Below, in pieces: positions 1,793 to 16,336 of a stretch of 64,000 bases of DNA (position 1 is the first letter of the stretch; each line of letters opens with the position of its first letter). A program made the translations under genes and the position numbers. Source of the stretch: Puniceicoccaceae bacterium (GTDB lineage Bacteria > Verrucomicrobiota > Verrucomicrobiia > Opitutales > Coraliomargaritaceae). The notes beneath the pieces are model-generated. The model did no database searches and was not told where the DNA came from. It was given only the letters and a program-made list of their open reading frames with translations. The stretch covers positions 124,001 to 188,000 of the forward strand of contig JAGYJE010000002.1 in the NCBI GenBank assembly GCA_018402305.1. The letters are read 5' to 3'.

Positions 1793-1954
1793 GTGAAAAC
1801 CATAACGCCGACCAAGCATTACAGCAGCACATTGCATCAGCTTTGTAAGCTCATCCCGTCGCACTTGACGGAAGAACTTGCCCGCAAGCATGGCGTGGAC
1901 AAAAAGTCCCGCACCTTCACCCCGTGGAGCCACGTGGTGAGTCTTCTCTTTGCA
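1793..1954 (+). pseudogene. IS4-family transposase stump (DUF4372 N-terminal domain)
   Basis: The first 54 codons read like the N-terminal DUF4372 region of IS4-type transposases: LHQLCKLIPSHLTEELARKH, then the TFTPWSHVVSLLFA segment that normally continues into the catalytic DDE domain. After SLLFA the frame runs directly into the repeat that begins GCCGGGTTGGCT and is lost; no catalytic residues follow. This is a dead remnant interrupted by, or recombined with, the dispersed repeat. The other half of the element is not visible in the window. Confidence 0.7.
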
Positions 1955-2145
1955 GCCGGGTTGGCTTTGCCGCCCCGGCCTGAGCTTGTCGAAGCGCCCG
2001 GCCTGAGCTTGTCGAAGCGCCCGGCCTGAGCTTGTCGAAGCGCCCGGCCTGAGCTTGTCGAAGCGCCCGGCCTGAGCTTATCGAAGCGCCCTGGCCGAGG
2101 CCCGTCCAATTCGCCCTGGCCTGAGCCTGTCGAAGGCCTCCTATT
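1955..2145 (+). repeat. Tandem 23-bp CCTGAGCTTGTCGAAG repeats
   Basis: Five head-to-tail copies of a 23-bp unit (core CCTGAGCTTGTCGAAGCGCC) start at 1977, 2000, 2023, 2046 and 2069. A degenerate copy follows at 2117 with the variant core CTGAGCCTGTCGAAGG. The cluster is led by GCCGGGTTGGCTTTGCCGCC, which is also found at 9904 and 10044. Because 23 is not a multiple of three, the open frames it creates (PELVE, SLSK, STSSG strings) are artefacts. Repeats with this core are common in many bacterial genomes as intergenic elements. Confidence 0.9.
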
Positions 2146-2204
2146 CCGACTTAAACCGATAGGTTGTAGCGCTAGGGGGCGATTACCAAGCTCCTAATCC
2201 TAAT

Positions 2205-2857
2205 CGTAATCCGCTCTCGGCCTGCCCGCCGTCGCCTCCGGCGAAGGCTGGGTCACCGTTCTCGTTAACCGATTCCCTCGTAGTCCATTTCGGTTCGACG
2301 ATAGCGGCGACGAGATGGGTGGACGATTACGGGTAACTCCACTCGTAATCCGTTCTGTCGCCGTTCTCGTCAACCGATTCCTCGTAGTCCATTTCGGTTC
2401 GACGATAGCGGCGACGAGATGGGTGGACGATTACGGGTAACTCCACTCGTAATCCGTTCTCGTCGCCGTTCTCGTCAACCGATTCCCTCGTAGTCCATTT
2501 CGGTTCGACGATAGCGGCGACGAGATTGGTGGACGATTACGGGTAACTCCACTCGTAATCCGTTCTCGTCGCCGTTCTCGTTAACCGATTCCCTCGTAGT
2601 CCATTTCGGTTCCACGATAGCGGCGACGAGATGGGTGGACGATTACAGGTAACTCCACTCATAATCCGTTCTCGTCACCGTTCTCGTTAACCGATTCCCT
2701 CGTAGTCCATTTCGGTTCGACGATAGCGGCGACGAGATGGGTGGACGATTACGGGTAACTCCACTCGTAATCCGTTCTCGTCGCCGTTCTCGTTAACCGA
2801 TTCCCTCGTAGTCCATTTCGGTTCGACGATAGCGGCGACGAGATTGGTGGACGATTT
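2205..2857 (-). repeat. Array 1 of the 105-bp tandem repeat (six units)
   Basis: The phrase ACCGATTCC recurs at 2268, 2373, 2478, 2584, 2690 and 2796, giving a period of 105-106 bp. Each unit contains GGCGACGAG and, about 45 bp later, CTCGTCGCC, able to pair, with inner arms GTGGA and TCCAC. Read on the minus strand this is the same repeat family as the arrays at 12685-13712 and 14487-14918, so it is inverted relative to them. Units are highly similar and differ mostly by point changes. The first copy is partial. No gene of this array's own was found; it abuts the 23-bp repeat family on both sides. Confidence 0.92.
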
Positions 2858-2858
2858 G

Positions 2859-2998
2859 CCGTTCTGGCCTGAGCTTGTTGAAGTGCCCGGCCGAGGCCTC
2901 TCGAAAACGCCCTGGCCTGAGCCTGTCGAAGGCCTCCTGTTCCGACGCGAAGCCATCACCACGCAGGGCGAACGGCAAAGCCATTTCGCCTACGGGCA
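2859..2998 (+). repeat. Composite repeat with CTGAGC/GTCGAAG cores
   Basis: Two to three diverged CTGAGCTTGTtGAAG-type cores are followed by a module containing CCATCACCAC and CATTTCGCCTACGG. The same module, with few differences, recurs at about 9978-10034. Together these form a larger dispersed repeat in which the 23-bp core is only one part. Confidence 0.75.
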
Positions 2999-3008
2999 AA
3001 ACCCTCTC

Positions 3009-3662
3009 TCAGGGAACCTTCTGACTGAACATGGCCAGCCGAACCGATTCACCGTCGCCATCCGGCAATAAGACGACTAATTCACGACTACTGTCCTTTG
3101 CATACCAGGTGCTCTGGTAAACATAGCCCGCTTCGCCGACCAATTCGACCTGGACGTAATTGCCCTCATCCGAATCGGCGGCGACCGTCCTGATTTCCCG
3201 GTCGGGCAGGAGGACTTTTTCATCTCCCATTAAGATCCCCAGGCGCAAACCGGAAAGGTTGATGAACCGAAAAGAGCCGCCGGGAAAGGAGCTGAATTCA
3301 TCTTCCATCACGTTCAGACCGAAGCGCTCCGCCCCCGCCTCCTGGTTCCGCGAGATAAAGATCAGCACCCGCTGCAAGCGAGGATCGACTGCCGCCCTTC
3401 CGGCAAGCAGGAAGGGGGGGGCATCCTCGGCGGTGGCTTCATTTTTGACATACAGATTCAGGAATCCGTCTACGTCGAGCTGCGTCGTGCCCGGAAGCGA
3501 ACGACGGCCGTCACGCAAGACAAGCGCATTGAAGTCGCCCTCATCCAGGTAAAACAGGTCTTTCCCCTCGTCCACGGATTCAAGAGTGATGGCGGTGAAA
3601 TCCAAAGCCGAAAGCACCGTGCCGGTAAGGAAAAACAGGAGGTAGATCAATATTTGGCGCAT
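3009..3662 (-). CDS. Secreted protein of unknown function, partner of Verru_Chthon A-type protein
   Basis: 217 aa with an N-terminal signal peptide (ILIYLLFFLTGTVLSA). I do not recognise a named domain. It lies 33 bp downstream of the large pilin-like protein at 3696-7250 and is probably co-transcribed. A homologous protein sits in the same position behind the second large protein (43286-43996). The two share an LFYL(D/N) motif near residue 40, a central segment with FLL/FFL then LxxxL(I)FI/LIFF, then FPxGxxxxxN near residue 130, and a C-terminal LLFLVPD/LVVLLPD motif. Conservation of both pairing and order suggests a two-gene unit. It is probably periplasmic or surface exposed; the function is unknown. 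Confidence 0.75.
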   Translation of the reverse strand: MRQILIYLLFFLTGTVLSALDFTAITLESVDEGKDLFYLDEGDFNALVLRDGRRSLPGTTQLDVDGFLNLYVKNEATAEDAPPFLLAGRAAVDPRLQRVLIFISRNQEAGAERFGLNVMEDEFSSFPGGSFRFINLSGLRLGILMGDEKVLLPDREIRTVAADSDEGNYVQVELVGEAGYVYQSTWYAKDSSRELVVLLPDGDGESVRLAMFSQKVP

Positions 3663-3695
3663 AATGGGTATTTGGATACGAATTTCGCTGGAAAC

Positions 3696-6600
3696 TCAAT
3701 TGAGCCAATTGAAGCCCACTACCTTGTAGCGTCTCCCGAAGGCTGCATTGATAGCGCTCAGAGCGTCCGGCTCGTCGATGGCATCGTTGCTCGCGCGATC
3801 CACATACTCGGGAAAGCGTTGCACGATGGCCTCGCATCGAGCCGTCACGATTTCTCCGCTCGTCGGATTGGTGTATTGGCCCTGCGCGGTGATACGAAAG
3901 GTGTCGGATCGCGCAGTGATCGCGCTGCCGATCGCCTTGAGCAAATCCGCCTGAGTCAAATAGCCACCGATCCCGGAAGCCGTGTTGCCCCAATCGGCGG
4001 AAGTCCCGTCCGGAAAGAGGTTGGTATCCGTGTATTCCGGCGTGGCTCCCTCAGACTGGATCGCACTGTTCAGATTCGCGGCTTCGATCGCGGCCTGCAG
4101 TGCGCCGGCTTCGCCCAAGGCTCCCGACTCGATCCGGCGGTTCACGAAATCACTCAGCCCCATGAACGGCCCCCGGAGTTTCACTTGATTAACAATCTCA
4201 GCGGCCAAGCGGTCGATCTCGGGATCGCTGAGACTGGCATAGCCGGCCCATGAGTCTCCATCGTCTGCCAATGGCTCGGCCGTCTTGGGAAAGGGGGTTT
4301 GCCCCGAACCCGGCGAGGCATTCACGCCTCCCCTGCCCTCCAGCGCCAAATCGCGGTTCGACCGAAGGAGCGCGGTCCATGCCTCGACTGAGCTTGAGTT
4401 GATGTTGAAGGCCCCGTCCTGGAAAGCATACTCCGCTATCCGCTTGTAACCATCGACTGACGATACCGGATCCAACTCGCCCAGGACCGTGCCCGCCTCT
4501 GCGGCTCCGATGGGCTGGATGCGGGAATTCAGGTGAGCGGAAACGGTCTCTTCATCGAGAAAATCGGCCAGCGCCTCGCCCAGATTCCCCTGCGGCGAAT
4601 AGCCCCCTGCAGTGATCTGATAGTCCGGAACAATCCCGGAAAAGAAATAGCGATCCCACAAGGCATCATTGGCCAGCCAGGTCGAGTCATAGATCTCCAT
4701 CGCATGCGGAGCGGGCGTTATCCCATGAATACCATCCAAAGCGATGAGCGGGCTCGGGCTGGACTTGCCGATCGTACGGACCGGATCGAAAATAAAGGGC
4801 GCGATGTCGGCACTCCCCATCGTCGCAAGGGAGACCGGGGGCGTGGTCGGGATCTCACGCATGGGAACGGTCGTCGTGTCTATGTCTACTCCGCCGGATA
4901 TGAGCGAGGCATAGCCATCCCCCCAAGAGGTCTTGCCGTCGTTGATCGTGCTCGGCAACATGGCATTGATATTCGGCTCCACTTCGAGCAGGGAAAAACG
5001 ATTGGGCGGGACCCAGCTCCAGCGTAACGCGTGAAAGGTGCTCGTGGGGTTGAAGTGGGCAAACGGTGCCACCCGCATCGTACCGTCGGCGTCGTCCCGC
5101 GTTCCCTTCATCAAGTTATCGAAATAACCGACCGGATATTTTACACCGGGGGCCATATCGACACTCACACTGATGTCGGATAAAACGACGGTCCGGTCCC
5201 AATTGGCATTGGAATCGACGGGCGAGGCCATGTTGATGAAGAAGTGCTGCAGGTGCTTTGTGCGCCGCTGCGGATCGTTTTGCCGACCGGTTGCGTAGCT
5301 CAAGTCATCGTCGGCAACGAAATCCAAATTAGTGATAAACCAGGCCTTACTCGTCCAGGGATCAGCAAAATCGTCCGGCAAAATGGCATTTCTCAAGTCC
5401 GTCGTCATCTCCACGTCCAGGAGGCTGTTCTCGGTGATGGGAATGGGCAGGCCTCCGGCCTCCGGATGGTTCCGCAGTAAAATGCCCGAGTTGTTGTTTA
5501 ACTGGGGGCCAGGCCAGGATTCTGTGGACGTCCCTGCCTGCTGACTCGAAAAAACCAAGATCTCACCCGGATCCATGACGACATCCCCGCCCCCGTCGTT
5601 AAGAAAGGTTTCAAACTGATTCAGCCCGGGTAAGTTCACAGTGATATAATCATCCAGAAAGGCCCGATAGGTCTGATCTCCGGATGGGTCTTCCACGCTG
5701 ATAGAGACCAAAAGCGGGAGATTACTGTATTGAATTTTAATATTCTCGAAACGGATGGCCTGATCGTAGGGATTCCAGAGATAGAAGAACGGATCAAAGG
5801 CGAGAGCCAACCTACCCGTGCCGGCAACGGAATCCCAATCGACCGGCACCAGAGTGAGAGCAAAACGGTAGCCTAACAGAATGGGCGTATAACTCCCTCG
5901 GCTGGGCATATAACGGTATTGCCCACCGCTACCCAATTCTTGGGTGTAGACGTCGGTAAATCCGGAAGGCTGCGCAAAGCGAGAGCGGTAGAATAAATCC
6001 CTATCGCCCGGCAGTTCGGATCGGTTTGGAAAATAGGGTTGCAGATCCATCTCATAGCCACTCCCGGAACTGCTCAGCCGGAGACGTTTGTATACATTGT
6101 AGTAATCCCGCATCGCATGCCAGGTGCCCCCCCGGGCGATGCCGCCGCTCGTGATTTCGGCGAAAATGAAACGGGTGAAGAAGTTCTGCCCCCCGGCTTG
6201 GTAGATGGCCGAGTGCGGGTCCTCGCTCCGAACGCCACTGCCGACAAACTCACCGATGGCCTGATTGAAATTCGTCAACTGGTTCGGATCCTCGACCGCG
6301 GCATCCATTTCGAAGGCCAGCGACAAGTCACGCTTCAGGCCACCGTTCTTTGTATCCGTCAGCAGACCTTTGGACGCAAGCGTCAGATTGTGGCGCTGGC
6401 TCTGCAGCCAATCCGCCCCAGGATCGGCATCACCGAGCAGTCGAAGCTGATCGGTCTGCTGCACGCGACTCCAACTTGAGAGAAAGTCACGGTTCGCCGG
6501 GTCAGTAAGCGGATAATCCAGCTCGCTGGCAAAGGGCCCCGCAAAAACGGACGTATCCACTCCCGGAGGGGCACTGAGCCGGCTGCGCTGGAGGAGGGAG

Positions 6601-7250
6601 GACGGCAAACTGTTCACCCGATCTTCATCCTCGTTCCAGGACACCTTGGCTTTCAGCCCCTCATCTTCGATCGCGTAGGCGTAGGCGCTCACTTCACTTG
6701 AGCCGCCGTCTATCACGACCAGGGGTGCATGGATTGAACTCTCCGGAATAGCGGAACCCGCACTATCCCGTCCCGCAAAGAGTTCGACGCCCGCAAGGCC
6801 GTCGGTGACGACACCATCTTCCGGATAATCCAGCTGATCGACCCCGGAGTTCTCCGGTGCGGAAACCAGCCAGCCGCGAAATGCCCGCGTATTCGCCGGA
6901 TCGAGCCGGTCATGCGAGGAGCTGTCCCAAACGCCGACCCAGTGCCGGTTCCCGGCGACCGAAGCATTCAATAAGCTGGCCGTGGCGGTCACACGCTGAT
7001 CCGCACCAGTCGCTTTCTGCAAGTCCCCCAAGCCCACCATCAGACCCAGCAGGGCATTTTGCTCCGCTTGCAGGCGTCCGAGCGAAGCCGTCGCCGAACG
7101 CGTCTCAATCCGAACCAAGGTCGTGATGCTCAAAAGCAGCAAAATCACAAAGGCCATCAAGGCCAGAGCAATGACGAGGGCGAAGCCACCGGTCGATCCG
7201 GGCTTTTTGAGTGGGGGAAAGACAGGCATACTGACAGCTCGACAATACAC
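3696..7250 (-). CDS. Verru_Chthon cassette protein A-type large pilin-like protein
   Basis: 1184 aa (or 1177 from the Met at 7229). The N-terminus carries a prepilin-like segment: GGFALVIALALMAFVILLLL then SITTLVRIETRSA, with small/charged residues before a hydrophobic helix as in type IV pilins, though without the usual Glu5. It is followed by LLGLMVGLGDLQKATGADQR and a very long soluble region. A NxNSSSVEAWTALL motif lies near residue 960, a helical GPFxxLxDFVNRR motif near 1030-1045, and the protein ends with RRYKVVGFNWL. These features match the verrucomicrobial cassette A family (TIGR02600-like), whose function is unknown. Companion cassette proteins B, C and D are absent here. It is close to the protein at 44009-47794. 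The downstream small gene is likely in the same operon. Confidence 0.8.
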   Translation of the reverse strand: MYCRAVSMPVFPPLKKPGSTGGFALVIALALMAFVILLLLSITTLVRIETRSATASLGRLQAEQNALLGLMVGLGDLQKATGADQRVTATASLLNASVAGNRHWVGVWDSSSHDRLDPANTRAFRGWLVSAPENSGVDQLDYPEDGVVTDGLAGVELFAGRDSAGSAIPESSIHAPLVVIDGGSSEVSAYAYAIEDEGLKAKVSWNEDEDRVNSLPSSLLQRSRLSAPPGVDTSVFAGPFASELDYPLTDPANRDFLSSWSRVQQTDQLRLLGDADPGADWLQSQRHNLTLASKGLLTDTKNGGLKRDLSLAFEMDAAVEDPNQLTNFNQAIGEFVGSGVRSEDPHSAIYQAGGQNFFTRFIFAEITSGGIARGGTWHAMRDYYNVYKRLRLSSSGSGYEMDLQPYFPNRSELPGDRDLFYRSRFAQPSGFTDVYTQELGSGGQYRYMPSRGSYTPILLGYRFALTLVPVDWDSVAGTGRLALAFDPFFYLWNPYDQAIRFENIKIQYSNLPLLVSISVEDPSGDQTYRAFLDDYITVNLPGLNQFETFLNDGGGDVVMDPGEILVFSSQQAGTSTESWPGPQLNNNSGILLRNHPEAGGLPIPITENSLLDVEMTTDLRNAILPDDFADPWTSKAWFITNLDFVADDDLSYATGRQNDPQRRTKHLQHFFINMASPVDSNANWDRTVVLSDISVSVDMAPGVKYPVGYFDNLMKGTRDDADGTMRVAPFAHFNPTSTFHALRWSWVPPNRFSLLEVEPNINAMLPSTINDGKTSWGDGYASLISGGVDIDTTTVPMREIPTTPPVSLATMGSADIAPFIFDPVRTIGKSSPSPLIALDGIHGITPAPHAMEIYDSTWLANDALWDRYFFSGIVPDYQITAGGYSPQGNLGEALADFLDEETVSAHLNSRIQPIGAAEAGTVLGELDPVSSVDGYKRIAEYAFQDGAFNINSSSVEAWTALLRSNRDLALEGRGGVNASPGSGQTPFPKTAEPLADDGDSWAGYASLSDPEIDRLAAEIVNQVKLRGPFMGLSDFVNRRIESGALGEAGALQAAIEAANLNSAIQSEGATPEYTDTNLFPDGTSADWGNTASGIGGYLTQADLLKAIGSAITARSDTFRITAQGQYTNPTSGEIVTARCEAIVQRFPEYVDRASNDAIDEPDALSAINAAFGRRYKVVGFNWLN

Positions 7251-7454
7251 AGAAATGAAGTTAATACTATCAAAAAGATTGGAATTTTTAAAAAAATACC
7301 ACTGATACAGGCCTTAGCAAGCCATTCAAATGAACCCGGCACGGCACTGCCAATCAATAACATGAAAAACCGCCGATCACAGACTTTAAACAGGAGATAC
7401 CGCTACGGCATCGGCAGGGATGCGGGAGGCCACTCCCGCCTCCCCGGATCAAGG

Positions 7455-9905
7455 ATGCGTACACTCGTGCTTTTAATGAGTCTCGGCGTGCTGATGGTGC
7501 TCCCGTTCCGCGTTGAAGCGGACATGGCGGAGTCGCAGAGTATCCAACCCGCCACTCTGAAAACAGCTGCTGATCTGAGTCCGCCGCCCTTGGACCCGCG
7601 CAATCAAACATTCGCGTACTGGGTTCACGGCTTTCGCAAGAACCCGAAGGAGCGCTCTCCGGATCTTCTTGCCTTTGAGACGGGGCATTACGGCTTCGTG
7701 TTGAATCTTGGCGACATCCGGCAAGCCCGACTCGGCCCCTTGAGACGAGAGGGTTACCTTCGGGGCCTGCTCACCGATCCAGAAGACATTCCAGAACTGC
7801 TCCCTGCCGAGCTCCTGATCCAAGTCACCGCTTCAGGACGAATCTACACTGCCACCCATAATGCGACAGGCCCCCGGACAGACGCCCGGCGGCTGAGGAA
7901 AGCGCGACTCTGGGAGTCAGGACGCTTTGTCCAGCACTATGATTTGATAGATCTCAAACTTGAGGATCCGGAGGGTCATTCATTCGAGGGCGAGGCCCGA
8001 CTGATTCTCGTAGCCTGGCCGGATGCCCTGACCTTCACCCTGGAACTGACTCCGGAAAAATCCCACAGCGGGGTGGTCGCTACGCGTATAGAGCTGGCGA
8101 TCAAGGGTCGCACTTGGGAAGAACGTTCTCCCGTCATCCAACAATGGGAAGCGGGGGAAAGCCGACAGCTGACGCTCAGTTGTGCACTGGCCCCGGGGGT
8201 GTCCACCGACCGGCAGCTCCCAGTCAGGCTGAAAACTGCCGATCATCAAGTACTGACGTCGGTCTTCGATCCTGTGTTGAATTGCCAAGTCGTCCAAGTC
8301 GATCAGCTTCGGCGGGGCTGGAAGACAGGCTACACCGACATCCGGAATTACGACGAATTCACCCTGGAGATCGACAACCCGGGCGACGGGATCCGCTCTG
8401 TGCCCTTCCTGCTCGACCTGCGCGACGTGGCCAACATCACCGGCCTCGTGCCTATGCTTTGCGATAGCGAGGGCAAGCCGACGGGCATCCCGGTCCAGCT
8501 CAGTAAAAACTGGCACAACCGTGAGCTGGGCTCTTATCTCCGAGCCTATACACTGCTCCCCGTTCCACCGGGCACAAAGTCATACACGCTTCGCATCGCC
8601 TACGGATTCTACGGCAGCCTCCCCTCGGCTTCCCATGCCCAGCTCTCTCTCGTCGGCTATAGTGACAAAGGGGGCAATGGACTATGGGACCAGCTGGCCA
8701 TCGGCTGCTGGGGGGAAACCTTCTGCTTCGACGTCGACCGTAGCCTCGTCGATGTCGCCATCACGGACGTTCGCATGCTCATGGCGCGGGACGGCTTGCA
8801 GGGACGGAAATGGGGCTGGACCACAGCCGGCTGGGGCGGCGACTGGCTTAGGGTCCAGCATGACGGCGGTGAGCGCCTCCATCCCAACGAACTAAAGACC
8901 GCCTACCTCGCGCATGGCCCCTGCCTGACGGATGTGCGCTATAGCGGTAAGCTCGGAAGCGAGGACGAAGTCGTCTTCGACGTGCAGGTCAAAACAACCC
9001 GCAGCGACGATTACGCCCGCACCTTCCAGAACCTGCGCTACACCTTCAGCAAAGAAGTACCGACAAAAGACGCCTGGCTGTTCAAAATGGGCCGAACCAG
9101 CCATTACGCTATGCCTCGCTTCGCTTACGGCAATGCGGACGGTCTCATCGCGGAGGCTGCGCCTCCGGAACCACTGGAAAGAGCCGGCTTCCTGATCGAA
9201 AACGCCACCATTGAGGGGCAAGCACCTTTTTGGCTGAGCTTCCCCGGAGCATTTAAGACCAAGGAAGAGGGAATGGCAGACGGCTACCGGGCGCTTGTCA
9301 TTCGCAGCTACAAGGCCACGCTGGGCGGCAGGATTTACCATGAGCCGAGCATCAGCGTGCCGGTGCATCAGATTAATGATGACGGCAGCAAGAACCTCGA
9401 CCTCCACCTGACCGTCCCCGAAGGCGTCGAGCACTTCCAGCCCGGCGATACGATCGAGATGGATCTCGAATGGATCAACCTTCACCGCGAAGCCGACGAC
9501 TACTACGGCCCCAATGAGGCCTACCGCCGGCATCTGAGCGAGCACCCGAGCTCCTGGAGGACCACTTACCGCGAAGCAATCGGCAACGACCTGGTCGTTG
9601 AAGTCGATGCCGGCCATGCCTATCGCAACTATCCGATCCATGTCCGGACTTCGGCCGACGAAGTCACCGTGCGCATCCAAGGCGGCGTGGGCTACGTCCC
9701 CATCCGCTTTGAGGGTTTGTCTTCCGCCAGCGGCTACACACTTTATCGAATCGAAAACGGAGTGGAATCGCCACTCGACCAATCCGTGAACGGCAACGAC
9801 TTTTGGCAAGTCGATTACGACGACGCCAGCGGCACTTATACCCGTGTTTACAACCTACCACTCGACGGACTCGAAAGCTCGATCTGGGTGCTCCGCCGAG
9901 AGTAG
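7455..9905 (+). CDS. Large secreted protein of unknown function
   Basis: 816 aa from the Met at 7455, chosen because GGA lies 6 bp upstream and because it directly starts a signal peptide (RTLVLLMSLGVLMVLPFRVEA). A start at 7362 would add 31 Arg-rich residues. The body is rich in Trp, Asp and Gly and predicted beta-strands, with no transmembrane segment after the signal. Notable stretches are GLWDQLAIGCWGETFCFDVD and WGWTTAGWGGDWLRV in the middle and HRNYPIHV-like segments near the end. This suggests several beta-sandwich modules and possibly carbohydrate contact, but I cannot assign a family. It is divergent from the Verru_Chthon A-type operon with about 200 bp between. A composite repeat begins at its stop codon. 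Confidence 0.7.
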   Translation: MRTLVLLMSLGVLMVLPFRVEADMAESQSIQPATLKTAADLSPPPLDPRNQTFAYWVHGFRKNPKERSPDLLAFETGHYGFVLNLGDIRQARLGPLRREGYLRGLLTDPEDIPELLPAELLIQVTASGRIYTATHNATGPRTDARRLRKARLWESGRFVQHYDLIDLKLEDPEGHSFEGEARLILVAWPDALTFTLELTPEKSHSGVVATRIELAIKGRTWEERSPVIQQWEAGESRQLTLSCALAPGVSTDRQLPVRLKTADHQVLTSVFDPVLNCQVVQVDQLRRGWKTGYTDIRNYDEFTLEIDNPGDGIRSVPFLLDLRDVANITGLVPMLCDSEGKPTGIPVQLSKNWHNRELGSYLRAYTLLPVPPGTKSYTLRIAYGFYGSLPSASHAQLSLVGYSDKGGNGLWDQLAIGCWGETFCFDVDRSLVDVAITDVRMLMARDGLQGRKWGWTTAGWGGDWLRVQHDGGERLHPNELKTAYLAHGPCLTDVRYSGKLGSEDEVVFDVQVKTTRSDDYARTFQNLRYTFSKEVPTKDAWLFKMGRTSHYAMPRFAYGNADGLIAEAAPPEPLERAGFLIENATIEGQAPFWLSFPGAFKTKEEGMADGYRALVIRSYKATLGGRIYHEPSISVPVHQINDDGSKNLDLHLTVPEGVEHFQPGDTIEMDLEWINLHREADDYYGPNEAYRRHLSEHPSSWRTTYREAIGNDLVVEVDAGHAYRNYPIHVRTSADEVTVRIQGGVGYVPIRFEGLSSASGYTLYRIENGVESPLDQSVNGNDFWQVDYDDASGTYTRVYNLPLDGLESSIWVLRRE

Positions 9906-10113
9906 CCGGGTTGGCTCCGCCGCCCTGGCCTGAGCTTGTCGAAGCGCCCGGCCGAGGCCTGTCGAAACCGCGTCCAATTCCGACGCGAACCCATCACCAC
10001 ACAGGGCGAACGGCGGAGCCATTTCGCCTACGGTTCTCACGCACGTAGCCGGGTTGGCTCTGCCGCCCTGGCCTGAGCTTCTGCCTGCCGTGAGTATGTC
10101 GAACGGTCGAAGC
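9904..10113 (+). repeat. Composite repeat cluster (GCCGGGTTGGCT / CTGAGCTTGTCGAAG)
   Basis: Two copies of GTAGCCGGGTTGGCTC (about 9904 and 10044) each lead into CCTGAGCTT cores. The first is also followed by the CATTTCGCCTACGG module seen at 2944-2998. The second core is interrupted (CTTCTGCCTGCCGTGAG) before a GTCGAACGGTCGAAGC end. No gene is seen. The cluster ends exactly where the 41-bp direct repeat flanking the AbiE module starts. Confidence 0.8.
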
Positions 10114-10154
10114 GCCTTGGGTCGGCGCTTCCACGGCCCCTTCTCGATGCGGGA
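10114..10154. repeat. Left 41-bp direct repeat flanking AbiE module
   Basis: Positions 10114-10154 match 11784-11824 at 40 of 41 positions (single C/T difference at the 26th base). The right copy lies within a transcription-factor gene remnant, where on the minus strand it encodes SRIEKGPWKRRPKA. The left copy is an isolated piece of the same gene. The copies have the same orientation and bracket both abiE genes. Confidence 0.85.
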
Positions 10155-10159
10155 GGCGC

Positions 10160-10981
10160 TCAGCCCATCTGCTCTAAAGCAGAGATTAGGAGTTCACGGC
10201 TGCAAAGCATCCTATCGGCGGGCTCGATCAAAAAGGGTTCGAGCTCACGCAACAAACGATCAAAATCAACCTCGTCCAAGCGTTCAATTAATCGCGCTCT
10301 CCACTCGGAGGCAGGCCATGGTTTCGGTTCCAATGCTTTGATCGTCGCGTCCAAGAAGTCTAGATTCGGAGAGACCTCACGAGATAAATACCAGGCAAGA
10401 TCGAAGAAATCGCGCCCTTTGGCGCGGTCGACACGGCAGCAAAGCACGTGCAACTTACCCGCAAATAAGCTGGGCAGGTCGTGCATAGTCAGGGCAAACG
10501 GACGAATCTTCGAACGGATGAGCATGGGAGTCTTCCCCCAACCTTCCGCCGGATTACGGTCGAGATCCAAACGCAGGGTGAAACGGGCGGCTCCGCCCGT
10601 GCGGAACACAGGCGGCAGACGAACGTCCAAGTGGCAGACGTAATCGAGTTTATCAGTCGGACCGCCCATCGGAATCGTCCGAAAATCACGCCTCGAACTG
10701 ATACCAATCTTCAACCGCATGAGTGCCTCGAAGGCAAGATCGCCCAGCTCAATCGTGCGATCAACCGACATCGGTCGCGAAACGGCAAAGTCGAGATCCT
10801 CTGAGAAACGGTTCAGTTGATGGCCGATACGCAAAGCCGTGCCGCCGACGAATGCCATTTCCTCGAAAAATCCAGCCGCGGCCAAAGTTCTCAAAATATA
10901 GCGCTGCACCGATTCACGAAATCCGTTGAGCCCACCGCCAAGCGCTTTGGCCTCCTGAGAAATGCTTACCAGATCTGACAT
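10160..10981 (-). CDS. abiEii: AbiEii/AbiGii-type nucleotidyltransferase toxin
   Basis: 273 aa. The nucleotidyltransferase core is visible: FVGGTALRIGHQLNRFSEDL then DF (residues about 43-65), matching the GGTALR...R.SEDLDF signature with the metal-binding acidic pair. Later come LFAGKLHVLCCRVDRAKGRD then FFDLAWYL (residues about 168-195), the conserved K and RDxxDL motifs. AbiEii proteins are toxins of type IV toxin-antitoxin systems that abort phage infection; characterised relatives modify tRNA acceptor ends with nucleotides. The gene starts 16 bp inside the upstream antitoxin gene, so the two are translationally coupled. The stop codon lies 6 bp from a 41-bp direct repeat. All key motifs are present and the length is normal, so it is probably functional. 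Confidence 0.9.
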   Translation of the reverse strand: MSDLVSISQEAKALGGGLNGFRESVQRYILRTLAAAGFFEEMAFVGGTALRIGHQLNRFSEDLDFAVSRPMSVDRTIELGDLAFEALMRLKIGISSRRDFRTIPMGGPTDKLDYVCHLDVRLPPVFRTGGAARFTLRLDLDRNPAEGWGKTPMLIRSKIRPFALTMHDLPSLFAGKLHVLCCRVDRAKGRDFFDLAWYLSREVSPNLDFLDATIKALEPKPWPASEWRARLIERLDEVDFDRLLRELEPFLIEPADRMLCSRELLISALEQMG

Positions 10982-11595
10982 GCCGCCTCCTTGTATAATT
11001 TGAATTGCTCCACCGAGCGTCTAAGCTTCGCCGCCCCCCATTTTTCAGCATACTGCTGCAGGCGCCCCTCGTTAAGGCAACGGGCATCGACACGTTCTTG
11101 CTTGAACCGATTTTGATCCCAATAAGAATCACTCCAATAAATCGCATCGAGCAGAGCCTTTTCGCAATTAGCCTGCAAAACGCAAAAACCTTGCACTTCT
11201 CGGCTCGAATAACCGAACCAGGCACGCTCGGGCAAGCGATGGTATGTGAAACGCCCATATGCATTCTCAAATTGAACCCTGCGCCCTCTTGTAGCTGCGA
11301 TAACAGCAAAGACCGCTTCGGGTATCACAGAAAACTGCGACAGAACCCAAACACCCGACAGATAACAAGGCTCGACCAATACCGAAGCTAAATAAGCCGG
11401 AGTCAGCGCGACCTCCCTATCGTGCTCGTTCAAAGTATAAAGACCACGACGAAGACGCTCAATCCGACCCGCTTGTGTCCATCGGTGCAGCGCTACTTGC
11501 ACGCTTGAGGAATCCTGCCCGGACACGATCACTACGTCCTGAGCAGAAAACACCGGCAACTGGCATGTCCATTTCCTGAGCTCCTCATAATTCAT
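10966..11595 (-). CDS. abiEi: AbiEi-family antitoxin
   Basis: 209 aa. The N-terminal 70 residues form a winged helix (FSAQDVVIVSG then SVQVALHRWTQAGRIERL then RRGLYTL), typical of AbiEi antitoxins that repress their own operon. The remainder resembles the C-terminal antitoxin domain, with YLSGVWVLSQFSVIPEAV and later ANCEKALLDAIYW, a common AbiEi feature. It is the first gene of a two-gene operon with AbiEii and overlaps it by 16 bp. In the known family the winged helix binds inverted repeats in the promoter. The region upstream of 11595 is AT-rich (ACTTAGCCTATATGTTAAG), which could hold promoter and operator. Confidence 0.85.
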   Translation of the reverse strand: MNYEELRKWTCQLPVFSAQDVVIVSGQDSSSVQVALHRWTQAGRIERLRRGLYTLNEHDREVALTPAYLASVLVEPCYLSGVWVLSQFSVIPEAVFAVIAATRGRRVQFENAYGRFTYHRLPERAWFGYSSREVQGFCVLQANCEKALLDAIYWSDSYWDQNRFKQERVDARCLNEGRLQQYAEKWGAAKLRRSVEQFKLYKEAACQIW

Positions 11596-11704
11596 ACTAG
11601 TAACTTAGCCTATATGTTAAGTTAAATGCAAGATTAATTCGCATAATGACAATCCTGTGATGAGCTTATCGAAGCCTGATAGCAGGACTAAGCTAAGAGG
11701 AGCC

Positions 11705-11944
11705 TTAATCGGGATTCAAAAACGAAGTCGGAATAGCGCAGGACGTTCCTTCAACCAAGCATGGCCGGTTGGGCAAGGTCTTTGCCTTGGGTCGGCGCTT
11801 CCACGGCCCTTTCTCGATGCGGGAAACGAGCAGCTCCGCCGCACGCCGACCGATTAAGTAGGCTTGTTGGTCGAAACTGGTGATTGCGACTCTCCGGTCG
11901 TGGGGCGGGGCGGCGCGCGAGATGTACAGCATCATCACACGCAT
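11705..11944 (-). pseudogene. C-terminal remnant of a LacI/GntR-type sugar-responsive regulator
   Basis: The minus strand encodes DRRVAITSFDQQAYLIGRRA then AELLVSRIEKG, then a Pro/Arg-rich tail ending at a stop at 11705. This is the last helix-strand unit of the periplasmic-binding-protein-like effector domain of LacI-family (or GntR/LacI hybrid) regulators (the 'FD...IGRxAAELL' signature). No DNA-binding domain or N-terminal half is found upstream; 11945-12060 in the same frame shows no clear family match. It is a remnant left after rearrangement around the AbiE module. Confidence 0.6.
11784..11824. repeat. Right 41-bp direct repeat flanking AbiE module
   Basis: Second copy of the 41-bp repeat at 10114-10154 (40/41 identical), inside the regulator remnant. 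See the finding on the AbiE island. Confidence 0.85.
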
Positions 11945-12106
11945 GCGGGGGTGATTCCCCGGATCGGTGGGATCGGGATGATGGTGGGCTTTATCCCCAC
12001 CGGTCCGTGGGTCGGCGCATCGAAAGCGGGCAGGCCCGGCAGCACCCCGGTATTGGGTAAAAGAAAACTTGAAACGAGCTAAAATCGCACTAAATTAAGA
12101 CCTATT

Positions 12107-12358
12107 ATGAGTCCTATATTAAGTGCCTATTCTGCCAGTATTTCTGAATTAAAAAAGAACCCTAGTAAGCTGATTGAGCGGGCTGGGGGTGAATCTGTGG
12201 CGATCCTAAACCACAATAAACCAACGGCTTACCTAATCCCGGCAGAGACTTTTGAGTGGATCAGCAACATGATCGAGGATCAGGAACTGCGAGAGATTAT
12301 CGAGCAAAGGGAAGAAGAAAAAGCACAAGCCAGGGAAATCAGTCTCGATGAGCTATAA
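12107..12358 (+). CDS. Phd/YefM-family antitoxin
   Basis: 83 aa. The first 45 residues match the Phd/YefM fold: SAYSASISELKKNPSKLIER followed by a strand with SVAILNHNKPTAYLIP. The acidic C-terminal tail (EDQELREIIEQREEEKA) is the flexible part that normally wraps around and blocks the toxin. It overlaps the RelE-type toxin gene by 11 bp, the usual antitoxin-first arrangement. Antitoxin dimers typically repress the operon, with the toxin as co-repressor. A TTGAAA hexamer at 12070 could be a -35 element, but this is weak. Confidence 0.88.
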   Translation: MSPILSAYSASISELKKNPSKLIERAGGESVAILNHNKPTAYLIPAETFEWISNMIEDQELREIIEQREEEKAQAREISLDEL

Positions 12359-12650
12359 GCTGAAATTTGTTCCGAGCGCACTGAAAGAATGGAATAAGAT
12401 CGGCTCCACGATACGCGATCAGCTTAAAAAGAAGTTAAAAGAGAGGCTGGAGCATCCCAAGGTATCAGCAGATCGTCTGCACGGTTTTCAAAACCACTAC
12501 AAAATAAAATTAAGGTCATCTGGTTACAGACTGGTCTATGAGGTCGAAAATGAAACGGTTTCAGTCATCGTGATCACAGTCGGAAAGCTTGAGCGTTCCA
12601 GTGTTTACATCAAGGCAGCAAGACGATCGAGAAGACCCAACCAGACGTAG
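12348..12650 (+). CDS. RelE/ParE-type mRNA interferase toxin
   Basis: 100 aa, small and basic. It shows the RelE fold order: N-terminal KLKFVPSALKEWNKI, an Arg/Lys-rich helix (IRDQLKKKLKERLEHP), then a strand with RLHGFQNHYKIKLRSSGYRL followed by VYEV and a C-terminal VIVITVGKLERSSVYIKA. Residues typical of RelE catalysis, the basic K/R cluster and the C-terminal Tyr, are present. Active relatives cleave mRNA in the ribosomal A site. It pairs with the upstream YefM-type antitoxin. The 105-bp repeat array starts about 35 bp after its stop. Confidence 0.88.
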   Translation: MSYKLKFVPSALKEWNKIGSTIRDQLKKKLKERLEHPKVSADRLHGFQNHYKIKLRSSGYRLVYEVENETVSVIVITVGKLERSSVYIKAARRSRRPNQT

Positions 12651-12684
12651 GTGGGCATGGTTCAGCGGGTTGCTTGAACATGCG

Positions 12685-13712
12685 GACAACGAGAACGGCG
12701 ACGAGAACGGATTACGAGTGGAGTTTTTTCAATCGTCCACCAATCTCAGGCCGCTATCGTCAAGCCGATATAGACTATGGGTAAATCGGAATACGAGAAC
12801 GGCGACGAGAGCGGATTACGAGTAGCGTTTTTTTAATCGTCCACCTATCTCGTCGCCGCTATCGTCAAACCGATATGGACTACGGGGAAATCGGAATACG
12901 AGAGCGGTTTACGAGTAGCGTTTCTCAATCGTCCACCAATCTCGTCGCCGCTATCGTCAAGCCGATATAGACTACAGGTAAATCGGTCTACGAGAACGGC
13001 GACGAGAACGGATTACGAGTGGAGTTTTCTCAATCGTCCACCAATCTCGTCGCCGCTTTCGTCAAACCGATATAGACTACAGGTAAATCGGTCTACGAGA
13101 ACGGCGACGAGAACGGGTTACGAGTGGAGTTTTTTTAATCGTCCACCTATCTCGTCGCCGCTATCGTCAAACCGATATGGACTACGGGGAAATCGGACAA
13201 CGAGAACGGCGACGAGAACGGGTTACGAGTGGATTTTTTAAAATCGTCCACCAATCTCGTCGCCGCTATCGTCAAGCCGATATAGACTACGGGGAAATCC
13301 CAATACGAGAACGGCGACGAGAACGGATTACGAGTGGAGTTTTTTAAAATCGTCCACCTATCTCGTCGCCGCTATCGTCAACCGAAATGGACTACGGGGA
13401 AATCCCAATACGAGAACGGCGACGAGAACGGATTACGAGTGGAGTTTTTTCAATCGTCCACCTATCTCGTCGCCGCTATCGTCAACCGATATAGACTACG
13501 GGGAAATCGGAATACGAGAACGGCGACGAGAACGGATTACGAGTGGAGTTTTTTAAAATCGTCCACCTATCTCGTCGCCGCTATCGTCAAACCGATATAG
13601 ACTACAGGTAAATCGGTCTACGAGAACGGCGACGAGAGCGGATTACGAGTGGAGTTTTTTTCAATCGCTTATCAATCTCGTCAATGCTATCGTCAACCGA
13701 TATGAATTACAC
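12685..13712 (+). repeat. Array 2 of the 105-bp tandem repeat (ten units)
   Basis: The anchor GAGAACGGCGACGAG (or close variants) occurs at 12691, 12795, 12900, 12992, 13097, 13202, 13307, 13412, 13516 and 13622. Steps are 104-106 bp except one of 92 bp, where the copy at 12900 has lost about 12 bp including the left stem arm. Most units hold a nested inverted repeat: outer CGGCGACGAG...CTCGTCGCCG (10 bp) and inner GTGGA...TCCAC. The period drifts by one base, so the open frames crossing the array are not maintained and are not genes. The last unit is interrupted by the S23-type gene at 13713. Confidence 0.93.
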
Positions 13713-14486
13713 ATGAGCGAACAAACGCATCAGAATCTACCGCATGAGCGACTCGACATTTACCGGGTCTATCTGGAAGCGGCGAATCTGTGCGCCGATA
13801 TCGTGGCAAACGCCCCATACCCAATCGTGGCATTCGACCATCTTGATCGGGCGATGGAGAGCATAGGCGTGAATTTGATGCGCGGGAACGGGCAGCCCGC
13901 AGGTTCGGCAGCGCGCGCGAACTACCTGAATGTTGCAATCGGTTCGACGCACGAATGTGCGGCTTCCCTCGATGTTTGCCTGGCCAGGTGCGTGATGAAT
14001 GAATCCGCTCACACCGCCGGAACACAGAAGCTCTGGCGGATACGCGGGATGCTGTTGGGCATGAAAAGGGCCAGTATTTCGTGGGCGGTCAGGGAGGAGC
14101 GCGCGCAGTATGGCACCTCGAAATTTCCTTTTACGACCCTCGACATGTATCGGGTTTCGCTCGATGGCGTTCGCTGGATTCAGCAATACGTTGAGGAACT
14201 GGAGCCAAAGAGTCGTACTCAGCGCAAACTGGACACGAGCACCACCGGAACCGTGCTGAATATAGCTGAAGGACATGGGCGTCAAACCGTGGCCGACCAG
14301 AATCGCTTTATGAAGACAGCCCAGGAACACGCTTATCAGACCCTTCTGATGCTGGACCTGATGGTCGCCAAAAATGAAACTACGGAGCATCGAATTGCGG
14401 AGGGCAAGCGAACGCAAGTGAGAATCATCACGATGCTCCATGCCTGGTGTGAATGCAACGAGCAGAGGAATGACCAGCACCCATGA
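13713..14486 (+). CDS. Tandem four-helix-bundle (S23/IVP-like) protein embedded in repeat array
   Basis: 257 aa, with no signal peptide. It consists of two copies of the four-helix-bundle domain seen in 23S rRNA intervening-sequence proteins (PF05635-like). Copy one (about residues 11-118) begins RLDIYRVYLEAANLC and has SIGVNLMRGNGQ and YLNVAIGSTHECAASLDV. Copy two (about 142-250) begins TLDMYRVSLDGVRW and has TGTVLNIAEGHGRQ and FMKTAQEHAYQTLLMLDL. The NIAEG...GS..E signature is conserved in position in both. Family members are usually single-domain (about 120 aa), so the duplication is unusual. Known relatives include Avd of diversity-generating retroelements, a basic nucleic-acid-associated protein, but no reverse transcriptase is near. 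The gene starts and ends at a fixed phase inside one 105-bp unit. No Shine-Dalgarno is visible. Function unknown. Confidence 0.82.
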   Translation: MSEQTHQNLPHERLDIYRVYLEAANLCADIVANAPYPIVAFDHLDRAMESIGVNLMRGNGQPAGSAARANYLNVAIGSTHECAASLDVCLARCVMNESAHTAGTQKLWRIRGMLLGMKRASISWAVREERAQYGTSKFPFTTLDMYRVSLDGVRWIQQYVEELEPKSRTQRKLDTSTTGTVLNIAEGHGRQTVADQNRFMKTAQEHAYQTLLMLDLMVAKNETTEHRIAEGKRTQVRIITMLHAWCECNEQRNDQHP

Positions 14487-14918
14487 GTTCGGCTAACGAG
14501 AACGGCGACGAGAGCGGATTACGAGTGGAGTTTTTTCAATCGTCCACCTATCTCGTCGCCGCTATCGTCAAACCGATATGGACTACGGGGAAATCGGAAT
14601 ACGAGAACGGCGACGAGAACGGGTTACTAGTGGAGTTTTTTCAATCGTCCACCAATCTCAGGCCGCTATCATCAAACCGAAATGGACTACGGGGAAATCG
14701 GAATACGAGAACGGCGACGAGAGCGGTTTACGAGTAGCGTTTCTCAATCGTCCACCAATCTCGTCGCCGCTTTCGTCAAACCGATATAGACTACAGGTAA
14801 ATCGGTCTACGAGAACGGCGACGAGAGCGGATTACGAGTGGATTTTTTTCAATCGTCCACCTATCTCGTCGCCGCTATCGTCAAACCGATAAGGACTACG
14901 GGGAAATCGGTCTACGAG
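14487..14918 (+). repeat. Array 3 of the 105-bp tandem repeat (four units)
   Basis: Anchors occur at 14498, 14603, 14707 and 14811 (steps 105, 104, 104), and a final partial copy ends at TCTACGAG (14911-14918). Orientation and sequence are as in array 2. The first copy starts within 12 bp of the S23-type stop codon, resuming the unit about where it was left before the gene. The right end is sharp: the next base belongs to the META-domain fragment. An ATG overlapping the S23 stop opens an 84-codon frame through the array, judged non-coding. Confidence 0.93.
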
Positions 14919-14919
14919 T

Positions 14920-15111
14920 GGCAGCTTCAAACTGGCCACCGTAGCGACCACCATGATGGCTTGCCCCAATATGGAGGGCGAAGCTGCGTTTCTCAAAGTG
15001 CTGCGTGACTACGAGCGTGCTGTGATTGGCGCGAGCCGAATCCGCCTGCTCGATGATGCGGGCGAAACCGTCGCCATTTTCGAAGCACGGGCACTCCCCG
15101 AAAACGACTAG
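14920..15111 (+). pseudogene. C-terminal fragment of a META-domain (HslJ-like) protein
   Basis: A frame open from the array edge to a stop at 15109-15111 encodes SFKLATVATTMMACPNMEGE, then AAFLKVLRDY, then RIRLLDDAGETVAIFEA. This matches the last strands of META domains, where a T-T-x-M-A-C-P motif precedes a helix and a final L-x-L-x-D-x-x-G strand. There is no start codon or N-terminal half; the 105-bp array replaces it. The missing 5' part was not found elsewhere in the window. The fragment is therefore a boundary marker for the array insertion. Confidence 0.7.
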
Positions 15112-15112
15112 T

Positions 15113-16336
15113 TCACCACGCCCCGCCCAGCGCGAGATTCAACCGGACCCGCTGATCGAGCTGTAGGCGTTGAATGTGGATCGACTGGCTTTTGCGCGCG
15201 GCCACCCGCTGCTGCACGGTGAGCACATCGAGTAAGGAAGACTCGCCTTCTTTGTGGCGCAAGCTGGCTATCTTGAGAGCCCGTTCGGCCTCAAGCGCCG
15301 CTTCGTCCAACTGCCCGGCGCGCCGGTTGAGTGACGAGCCCAGGTCCAGCAGGGTTTCGACCTCGCCGAAGGCCTGCAAGGCCGTCTGGGCGTAGTTGGC
15401 CACTGCTTGCCTCTGCCCTGCCGTGGCGGCGGCCAGGTCTGCGCGGCGGGCACCGCCATCGAGCAATGGGGCGAGCAGATTTCCAGCAGCTTGCCAGGCC
15501 AGATTATCCGGACGAAGGATATCGACCAGCTCTCCGGAACGGTTGCCGAGGTTTCCGGTCAGGCTGAGCGTCGGAAGCCGGGCGGCGCGGGCCCGGGCGG
15601 TCGACTCAAAAGCGGCGGCGACCTCGCGTTCGGCCGCGATCACATCCGGCCGCCGCTCCAGTAGCTCCGAGGGTAAGCCAGCCGGGGGTGCGGCAGGCAG
15701 GCCTGGCAAGGAGAGGGCCAGCTCCAGCTCGGCGCCGGGGTAGCGACCCAGCAGCAACTCCAGTGCTCGCACGGCATCGCGGCGCGCAAGCGTAACCTCC
15801 TCCAGTTGGACCCGCGCCAGCGCCAGATCAGACTTCGAGAGTGCGAGGTCCTGGGCATCCGCTAAACCGTTGTCATGCTGAATCTGGACGATCCGGCTGA
15901 GCGCCTCCAAAGTCTCGATGTTCTCACGCGCCAAATCGACCTGCAGATTGCCCTCAATCGCCGTAAAGTAGGCTTGAGCCGTGGCCGCCGCGATGGCGTG
16001 GCGGGCAAAGACCAACTGCGCCTCGGCCGCCTCCGCGCTGGCGGCCGCACCTCGCTGACCCGCCGACAGCTTACCCCAAATGTCCAACTCCCAGCTGACC
16101 TGAGCACCCACCGAAAAATCCTCCAGAGTCTGCCGGTTTTCGATTAGACCGCTGCTGCCACCACTCCCGGCGACGGCCAGACTGGGCTTGAGCGCCGCAC
16201 CGGCCTTGGCAGCCAGCGCCCGTGCCCGCTCCACTTGGGCCGCAGCCGCCTGCAAATCACGATTGTGCGCCTGCGCTTCCGCGACCAACGCTTCGAGTTG
16301 TGCGCTTTGAAACCTGCTCAGCCACTTTTGCTCCAC
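15113..16336 (-). CDS. RND efflux outer-membrane channel (NodT/OprM family)
   Basis: 407 aa from a GTG at 16336. It shows the TolC-like duplicated helix-hairpin pattern: repeated Ala/Leu/Gln-rich coiled segments, DFSVGAQVSWELDIWGKL near residue 73, ERRPDVIAAEREVAAA near 228, LSLTGNLGN then the barrel-forming strands, and KEGESSLLDVLTVQQ near 365. Family members normally start with a lipoprotein signal. Here the reading frame continues upstream past an SGC lipobox-like triplet but has no start. A signal-peptide-like stretch (LLSLAMLGLVVSL) lies in another frame at about 16450-16490, ending at a stop. A frameshift or small insertion has probably detached the signal, so export may be lost. It is the third gene of an adaptor-pump-channel operon. 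Confidence 0.85.
   Translation of the reverse strand: MEQKWLSRFQSAQLEALVAEAQAHNRDLQAAAAQVERARALAAKAGAALKPSLAVAGSGGSSGLIENRQTLEDFSVGAQVSWELDIWGKLSAGQRGAAASAEAAEAQLVFARHAIAAATAQAYFTAIEGNLQVDLARENIETLEALSRIVQIQHDNGLADAQDLALSKSDLALARVQLEEVTLARRDAVRALELLLGRYPGAELELALSLPGLPAAPPAGLPSELLERRPDVIAAEREVAAAFESTARARAARLPTLSLTGNLGNRSGELVDILRPDNLAWQAAGNLLAPLLDGGARRADLAAATAGQRQAVANYAQTALQAFGEVETLLDLGSSLNRRAGQLDEAALEAERALKIASLRHKEGESSLLDVLTVQQRVAARKSQSIHIQRLQLDQRVRLNLALGGAW

Follow-up and report, generated by a model that had tools for sequence, protein, structure and literature searches.

A two-domain S23/IVP gene within a 105-bp repeat array: a candidate derived copy of a small element with inverted short-repeat arms

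The S23/IVP gene and its repeat array

The window analysed here, a stretch of 64,000 nucleotides from a Puniceicoccaceae bacterium (GenBank assembly GCA_018402305.1, contig JAGYJE010000002.1, positions 124,001 to 188,000 of the forward strand), carries a gene of the S23/IVP protein family embedded in a tandem array of hairpin-forming units of about 105 bp. We verified the block of array and gene by Tandem Repeats Finder (TRF), unit extraction, and open reading frame (ORF) and profile searches. The S23 gene is the single convincing ORF within the array, and the units run head-to-tail on either side of it, ten to the left and four to the right in one orientation; TRF and the ORF search thus agree with an earlier note made from the letters of the DNA. 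The features, in window coordinates, are:

12689..13703, + strand: left array of ten hairpin units of ~105 bp, the second shortened, the tenth partial and diverged (TRF, period 105, 9.8 copies; hand-cut units; hairpin folds)
13676..13700, + strand: C-rich short-repeat arm immediately 5' of the S23 gene, TCTCGTCAATGCTATCGTCAACCGA (sequence; inverted alignment to the downstream arm)
13713..14486, + strand: two-domain S23/IVP gene (PF05635, TIGR02436), 257 aa, ATG start (profile searches; AlphaFold2 model)
14489..14513, + strand: G-rich short-repeat arm immediately 3' of the S23 gene, TCGGCTAACGAGAACGGCGACGAGA, the inverse of 13676-13700 (sequence; inverted alignment)
14496..14918, + strand: right array of four units (TRF, period 104, 4.0 copies; hand-cut units)

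Cut by hand, the units measure 104-106 nt, with the exception of the second (93 nt) and the partial last units. An 11-bp hairpin core (CGGCGACGAGA/TCTCGTCGCCG) is present in every unit, and as RNA hairpins four of the five folded unit sequences gave z values of -3.2 to -5.6, the weakest reaching -2.1. The final unit before the gene is diverged, with CGCTTATCAATCTCGTCAATGC where the others have CGTCCACCAATCTCGTCGCCGC, and after the stop codon the array restarts with TCGG-CTAACGAG. About 7 nt of the unit (GGGGAAA) are displaced by the gene, close to the 5-6 nt given originally. No Rfam family, 23S rRNA included, matched across window positions 1800-16000.

PF05635 matches the protein twice, once per stretch, at 34.3 and 33.7 bits, and the whole-protein score of 64.5 bits (E 1.2e-17) lies above the curated cut-off of 33.8; TIGR02436 also matches in two stretches (53.5 bits against a cut-off of 24). 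AlphaFold2 predicts two four-helix bundles, at residues 12-120 and 142-255, the first with a high predicted local distance difference test score (pLDDT) and the second with a moderate one of about 65, because the alignment does not span the second domain. Among solved structures, the S23 proteins 2RLD and 2GSC come closest in fold (template modelling score 0.77-0.87 by target length). In the profile search PF05635 was the sole match, with no Y1/HUH transposase domain, and we know of no catalytic motif in S23. Among 273 genomes of the order the two-domain form was seen once, all other matches being single-domain relatives, and searches against viral contigs and plasmids gave no matches to the window protein. 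The earlier note had proposed a search for other genomes with a PF05635-like gene in repeats of about 105 bp; the whole-order search gave no second instance of the two-domain gene in the 105-bp arrangement.

The fold search also returned, weakly, the Avd protein of diversity-generating retroelements (DGRs; 4DWL, 8UB7). That the window protein is an Avd-type accessory acting in trans is barely credible: the fold is the same and a single DGR-like reverse transcriptase is encoded in the genome, on contig C76, but that contig has no PF05635 gene, no reverse transcriptase was found near any S23 gene of the genome, and the S23/IVP profiles match directly where Avd is only a weak fold match. With the sole RVT_1 of the genome on C76 and the Avd match weak, we rejected this role. 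The reverse transcriptase itself (motif GLPIGNLTSQ) adjoins a formylglycine-enzyme-like ORF (locus L336, C76:111018-111647 of the window genome, G000).

Inverted arms at S23 genes in general

S23 loci in six genomes of the genus, the other three of the window genome included, have short tandem repeats on both sides of the gene, and the two sides are mutually inverted. The repeat unit of these arms is 6-15 nt, mostly 7, and arm pairs include CGGGATn/nATCCCG, GAACATC/GATGTTC, GATGAAT/ATTCATC, GAGTGA/TCACTC and the 15-mer GTTCGGTTTTCGGTT/AACCGAAAACCGAAC. A typical copy is 0.5-0.7 kb long, lies in sense orientation between two operon genes and has repeats of 6-8 nt, sometimes longer. Across the genus an inverted-flank score of at least 18 was reached by 19/23 S23 genes and 13/17 PDDEXK_3 (GxxExxY) genes, against 0/26 for a ParE control.

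The same holds well beyond the genus, for S23 genes in most bacterial phyla. For 80 named loci, which span Bacillota, Bacteroidota, Acidobacteriota, Chloroflexota, Proteobacteria, Planctomycetota, Spirochaetota, Patescibacteria and others, the median inverted-flank score was 20.5 compared with 11 for shifted controls (p 3e-26), while direct, same-orientation similarity of the flanks stayed at control level. These loci came from a narrow protein alignment and are biased to close S23 relatives, which a phylum sample partly corrects; there, scores of at least 18 were found for 20/29 S23 genes versus 16/116 shifted controls. The same threshold was reached by 17/23 S23 genes on IMG/VR viral contigs, and plasmid copies in Nostoc, Anabaena and Calothrix show inverted arms too, some plasmid copies sitting between cas6 and cas4 or between cas10 and cmr3. 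When 800 kb of the window genome were scanned without bias, a score of at least 22 was reached by 5 of 613 genes: three S23 genes (the window gene among them), an IS200/RAYT-like gene that lies beside repetitive extragenic palindromic (REP)-type arrays and acts as a positive control, and a gene between solo arrays.

The arms have further regularities. Among 64 named loci whose arms are clearly periodic, a period of 7 or 14 nt dominates in 53; upstream of the gene, ~100 nt of the sense strand are G-rich in 74/78 loci, and downstream it is C-rich; the S23 gene shares the strand of its neighbours in 41/46 co-oriented gene pairs, the gaps to them having medians of 55 and 48 nt; and the RNA duplex formed by the arms has a median z of -3.6 (40/75 below -3) compared with 0.2 for ParE (0/22). 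Three side observations belong here. At loci L049 and L044 the flanking repeats are largely in the same orientation, possibly as rearranged copies. PDDEXK_3 genes likewise lie between short inverted repeats, of the GCGCAGAG, CGCAGAT and CGCGAATGGA types (L249-L278; for example L269, L258, L249 and L250). Among the genus genomes G000-G014, the six with S23 genes are the same six that have PDDEXK_3 genes, and both are absent from the remaining nine, mostly 1.2-2.2 Mb in size.

Related S23 proteins also have related arms. Protein identity and arm similarity were correlated in a Mantel test that left out pairs with common flanking genes (r 0.48 in the genus and 0.21 in the named loci across phyla; 0/500 permutations), and similar arms were found in 30% of S23 pairs above 60% identity versus 1-3% at lower identity. 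This bears on the proposal that S23 genes carry no repeats themselves and prefer pre-existing short-tandem-repeat arrays as a target. S23-free solo arrays of these repeat families are indeed common in the genome, but insertion into a tandem array would give flanks in the same orientation whereas the observed flanks are inverted, and related proteins go with related arms at unrelated sites. We therefore regard target preference as very improbable.

Orthologous sites are found occupied, decayed and empty. At the aldolase-mdh site one genome (G000) has the full element, in G006 most of the S23 gene is deleted, G001 and G005 keep degenerate repeats only, and G004 and G009 are empty. The leuB-alaS site holds S23 with GAACATC arms in three genomes and a GxxExxY-type gene with inverted repeats of ~10 nt in two (for example L258), with no insert in others. 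Solo arms of the same repeat families, without S23, are dispersed across the window genome. It is the other S23 elements of the genus, and not the window copy itself, that were seen to be present or absent at orthologous sites and to recur as one S23 type at different sites. Within the alaS coding sequence itself, CGGGATG heptamers (L040 3861-3911) encode the protein insert PHSESRIPHPESPIP, a solo array tolerated in frame.

Comparison of genomes thus shows that the arms are inverted and cognate, that insertion in operons is in sense, that elements decay to solo repeats and that one site can have differing occupants; an S23 gene with its matched repeats is probably one small spreading element. 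A different account takes the arms as regulatory RNA structures (a supply of ribosome sites, transcript stabilisers, terminators or RNase III sites) of a resident, non-moving S23 gene, whose protein regulates its own or neighbouring messages. Strong strand polarity, upstream G-rich runs that could supply ribosome sites, sense orientation in operons and long-lived insertions at some sites all fit it, and heptamers near start codons have been proposed as translational regulators in Beggiatoaceae (PMC4679880). Polarity is opposite in one S23 clade, however, and the decayed and solo copies, together with the same S23 type at different sites across genomes, point to spread; we consider the regulatory account rather unlikely.

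The suggestion that an S23 gene and a structured repeat form an element has thereby gained strong comparative support, in that cognate inverted arms were present at almost all S23 genes examined. A tandem array of 105-bp units is atypical. The earlier note had held that the linkage would be chance if protein without repeats and repeats without protein were similarly frequent. Half of this was seen: repeats without the gene are common, but the gene without repeats is rare. The linkage is far more general than the window and, as far as these comparisons go, unlikely to be chance.

Origin of the window copy

The nearest relatives of both domains of the window protein form the clade starting FDHEKL. 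Arms in this clade are of hexamer type, with a period of 6 or 12 in 16/18 cases, and the C-rich side is upstream in 16/18 of its loci compared with 8/100 other S23 loci. The G-rich arm in the window reads GAATAC-GAGAAC-GGCGAC-GAGAAC, with self-similarity peaks at lags 6 and 12, and the two window arms are inverted with the C-rich one upstream, so that period and polarity are both as in the FDHEKL clade. Since the window gene has the period, polarity and inverted arms typical of its own clade, a chance linkage is unlikely.

The 105-bp array has a history of its own. The S23 locus is flanked by a toxin-antitoxin (TA) pair and an efflux operon, and within the 3.1-Mb genome the 105-bp unit is confined to the contig carrying the window (C12), where it forms four arrays, one of them with the S23 gene; it is absent from all 37 relatives searched. 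The TA genes and the other three arrays, which the earlier note had missed, are:

12107..12358 of the window, + strand: Phd/YefM-type (YafN-like) antitoxin gene, 83 aa (PF02604 E 1.4e-11, TIGR01552)
12348..12650 of the window, + strand: RelE/ParE-type toxin gene, 100 aa (PF05016 E 4.9e-11, TIGR02385)
2252..2856 of the window, - strand: gene-free array of ~6 units of a diverged version of the unit, in inverted orientation, 86-88% identical to the consensus (TRF, unit extraction)
C12:80944-81964: gene-free array of the 105-bp unit (genome search)
C12:109799-109949: degenerate remnant of a 105-bp array (genome search)

The array at C12:80944-81964 is preceded by a near-identical YafN/RelE-type pair (at ~80.3 kb), 55 kb from the window copy, and this copy of TA pair and array has no S23 gene. 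The duplicated segment starts at window position 12048, and 12048-12700 aligns to L036 4303-4956. Between the two TA-linked arrays, units A4 and L6 are about 1 base apart and the pairs A9-L5 and A7-L9 are also near; inside the window array the unit closest to R3 is L3. Hence the module of TA pair and array has recently been duplicated, with exchange of units, and the 105-bp unit is not bound to the gene in every copy. The array, first taken as the form of the element, is better described as a locus-specific amplification, as arrays of the same unit also occur without the gene. Two of the gene-free arrays are framed by CCTGGCCTGAGCCTGTCGAAG repeats (window 1974-2135, 2864-2939 and 9921-9966; L037 4560-5050). 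Elsewhere in the genome, an IS200/RAYT-like transposase gene lies beside palindromic arrays with a GAGCTCGCTCGGGC core, two of them with a 105-bp period (C67:119625-124079, in L246 and L247). The period common to these and to the unrelated S23 array may reflect a shared amplification process.

These data invite the explanation that the array is a satellite or REP-like repeat of the TA module or the contig, into one copy of which the S23 gene was inserted by chance. The S23-free TA pair and array 55 kb away and the two further gene-free arrays on the contig favour it, as does the recurrence of left unit types in the right array (R3 like L3), which indicates active exchange. Weighing against it are the inverted arms on both sides of the gene with the period and polarity typical of its own S23 clade; the gene-adjacent unit, more diverged than the others, so that the junction is not recent; S23 genes elsewhere that have the same architecture with unrelated repeats; and homologues of the TA pair in further genomes of the genus, which have no such repeat beside the toxin gene. 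We judge chance insertion unlikely.

We favour, with some confidence, the reading that a small element, composed of an S23/IVP gene and cognate inverted short-repeat arms, is present in the window as a derived copy. Several points weigh against it. The three further 105-bp arrays lack an S23 gene and one is linked to a TA pair; therefore, the gene could be a late passenger. The hexamer pattern (15/18 versus 2/102) was formulated after the clade had been seen. Similarity between the window unit and the clade arms is modest (6-mers p 0.01; 7-8-mers not significant), and against the arms of 103 other S23 loci the best local score of the window unit was 17 and the median 11, with 15 for L053, which is not decisive. 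Members of the clade are often in common insertion sites, and vertical inheritance therefore accounts for part of the cognacy. No target-site duplication was found, the element ends being too repetitive to delimit. As for the flank scores, the upstream flanks of the ParE control are antitoxin coding sequence rather than spacer, and gene starts were set by rule.

For such a derived copy, juxtaposed arms forming a hairpin would have been amplified into 105-bp units through unequal exchange or slippage, and the gene would have gained a second domain. Either in the transcript or as extruded DNA, the arms could pair to a long stem, to which an S23 assembly (a pentamer in solved relatives) may bind. 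RNase III-type processing of the stem, as for rRNA intervening sequences (IVSs), might keep the messages of the flanking genes usable, and such insertions would therefore be tolerable. Loss of the gene would leave solo repeats behind, resembling miniature inverted-repeat transposable elements.

Relation to known elements

The S23/IVP family is little understood, its function having been a question since IVSs were first described, and the origin of heptamer repeats is likewise a question. If gene and repeats are one element, S23/IVP function and the origin of heptamer repeats in Xanthomonas, Nostoc, Beggiatoaceae and others merge into one testable question, and for each S23 protein a ligand can be predicted from the genome sequence in the form of its own arms. 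A broader proposal, which we put forward tentatively and with less than even confidence, is that S23/IVP genes with cognate arms are pan-bacterial small mobile elements that insert between the genes of operons, in sense orientation. Among their insertion types, the 23S rRNA IVS would then be only the most visible, the widespread heptamer repeats would be largely solo remnants, S23 would recognise its own arms, and PDDEXK_3/GxxExxY would be a second small family of the same architecture.

Dispersed heptamers such as GGGAATC in Xanthomonas and GGGGATT in Nostoc (PMC4692102) and TAACTGA in Beggiatoaceae (PMC4679880), and cyanobacterial short tandemly repeated repetitive sequences (STRR), share the repeat style of the arms, being intergenic and often in inverted pairs, but S23 genes are not mentioned in the consulted parts of either source. 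At L365, from the same phylum as the window genome, exact GGGAATC arms lie on both sides of an S23 gene. We found no open-access literature linking S23 genes with dispersed heptamer repeats, and the novelty of the link is provisional to that extent.

DGR Avd resembles the window protein in its four-helix fold and nucleic-acid setting, but neither a reverse transcriptase nor a template or variable repeat adjoins the window locus. In REP-associated tyrosine transposase (RAYT)-REP systems and REPINs, as here, a protein gene is flanked by cognate hairpin repeats and gene-free copies are dispersed. S23 lacks the HUH/Y1 nuclease domain, however, and in place of a single REP its arms have heterogeneous short tandem repeats; without a nuclease domain the S23 element is therefore not a RAYT-REP member, despite the layout.

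The closest comparison is with the 23S rRNA IVSs of Coxiella, Leptospira and Haemophilus, which have the same protein family (S23p/IVP) and an ORF between complementary termini. The linkage that the earlier note could not name does have a counterpart, as the protein is the IVP/S23p of these sequences and the Coxiella IVS is comparable, with a 28-bp terminal stem of inverted repeats, tandem GACAGAT heptamers just upstream of the ORF and cutting by RNase III (PMC4990558). The window element differs in lying outside an rRNA gene, in arms that are short-repeat arrays amplified to 105-bp units and in its two-domain protein. On these sequence comparisons it is best read as a free-standing relative of the 23S rRNA IVS, with a RAYT-REP-like layout and no transposase.
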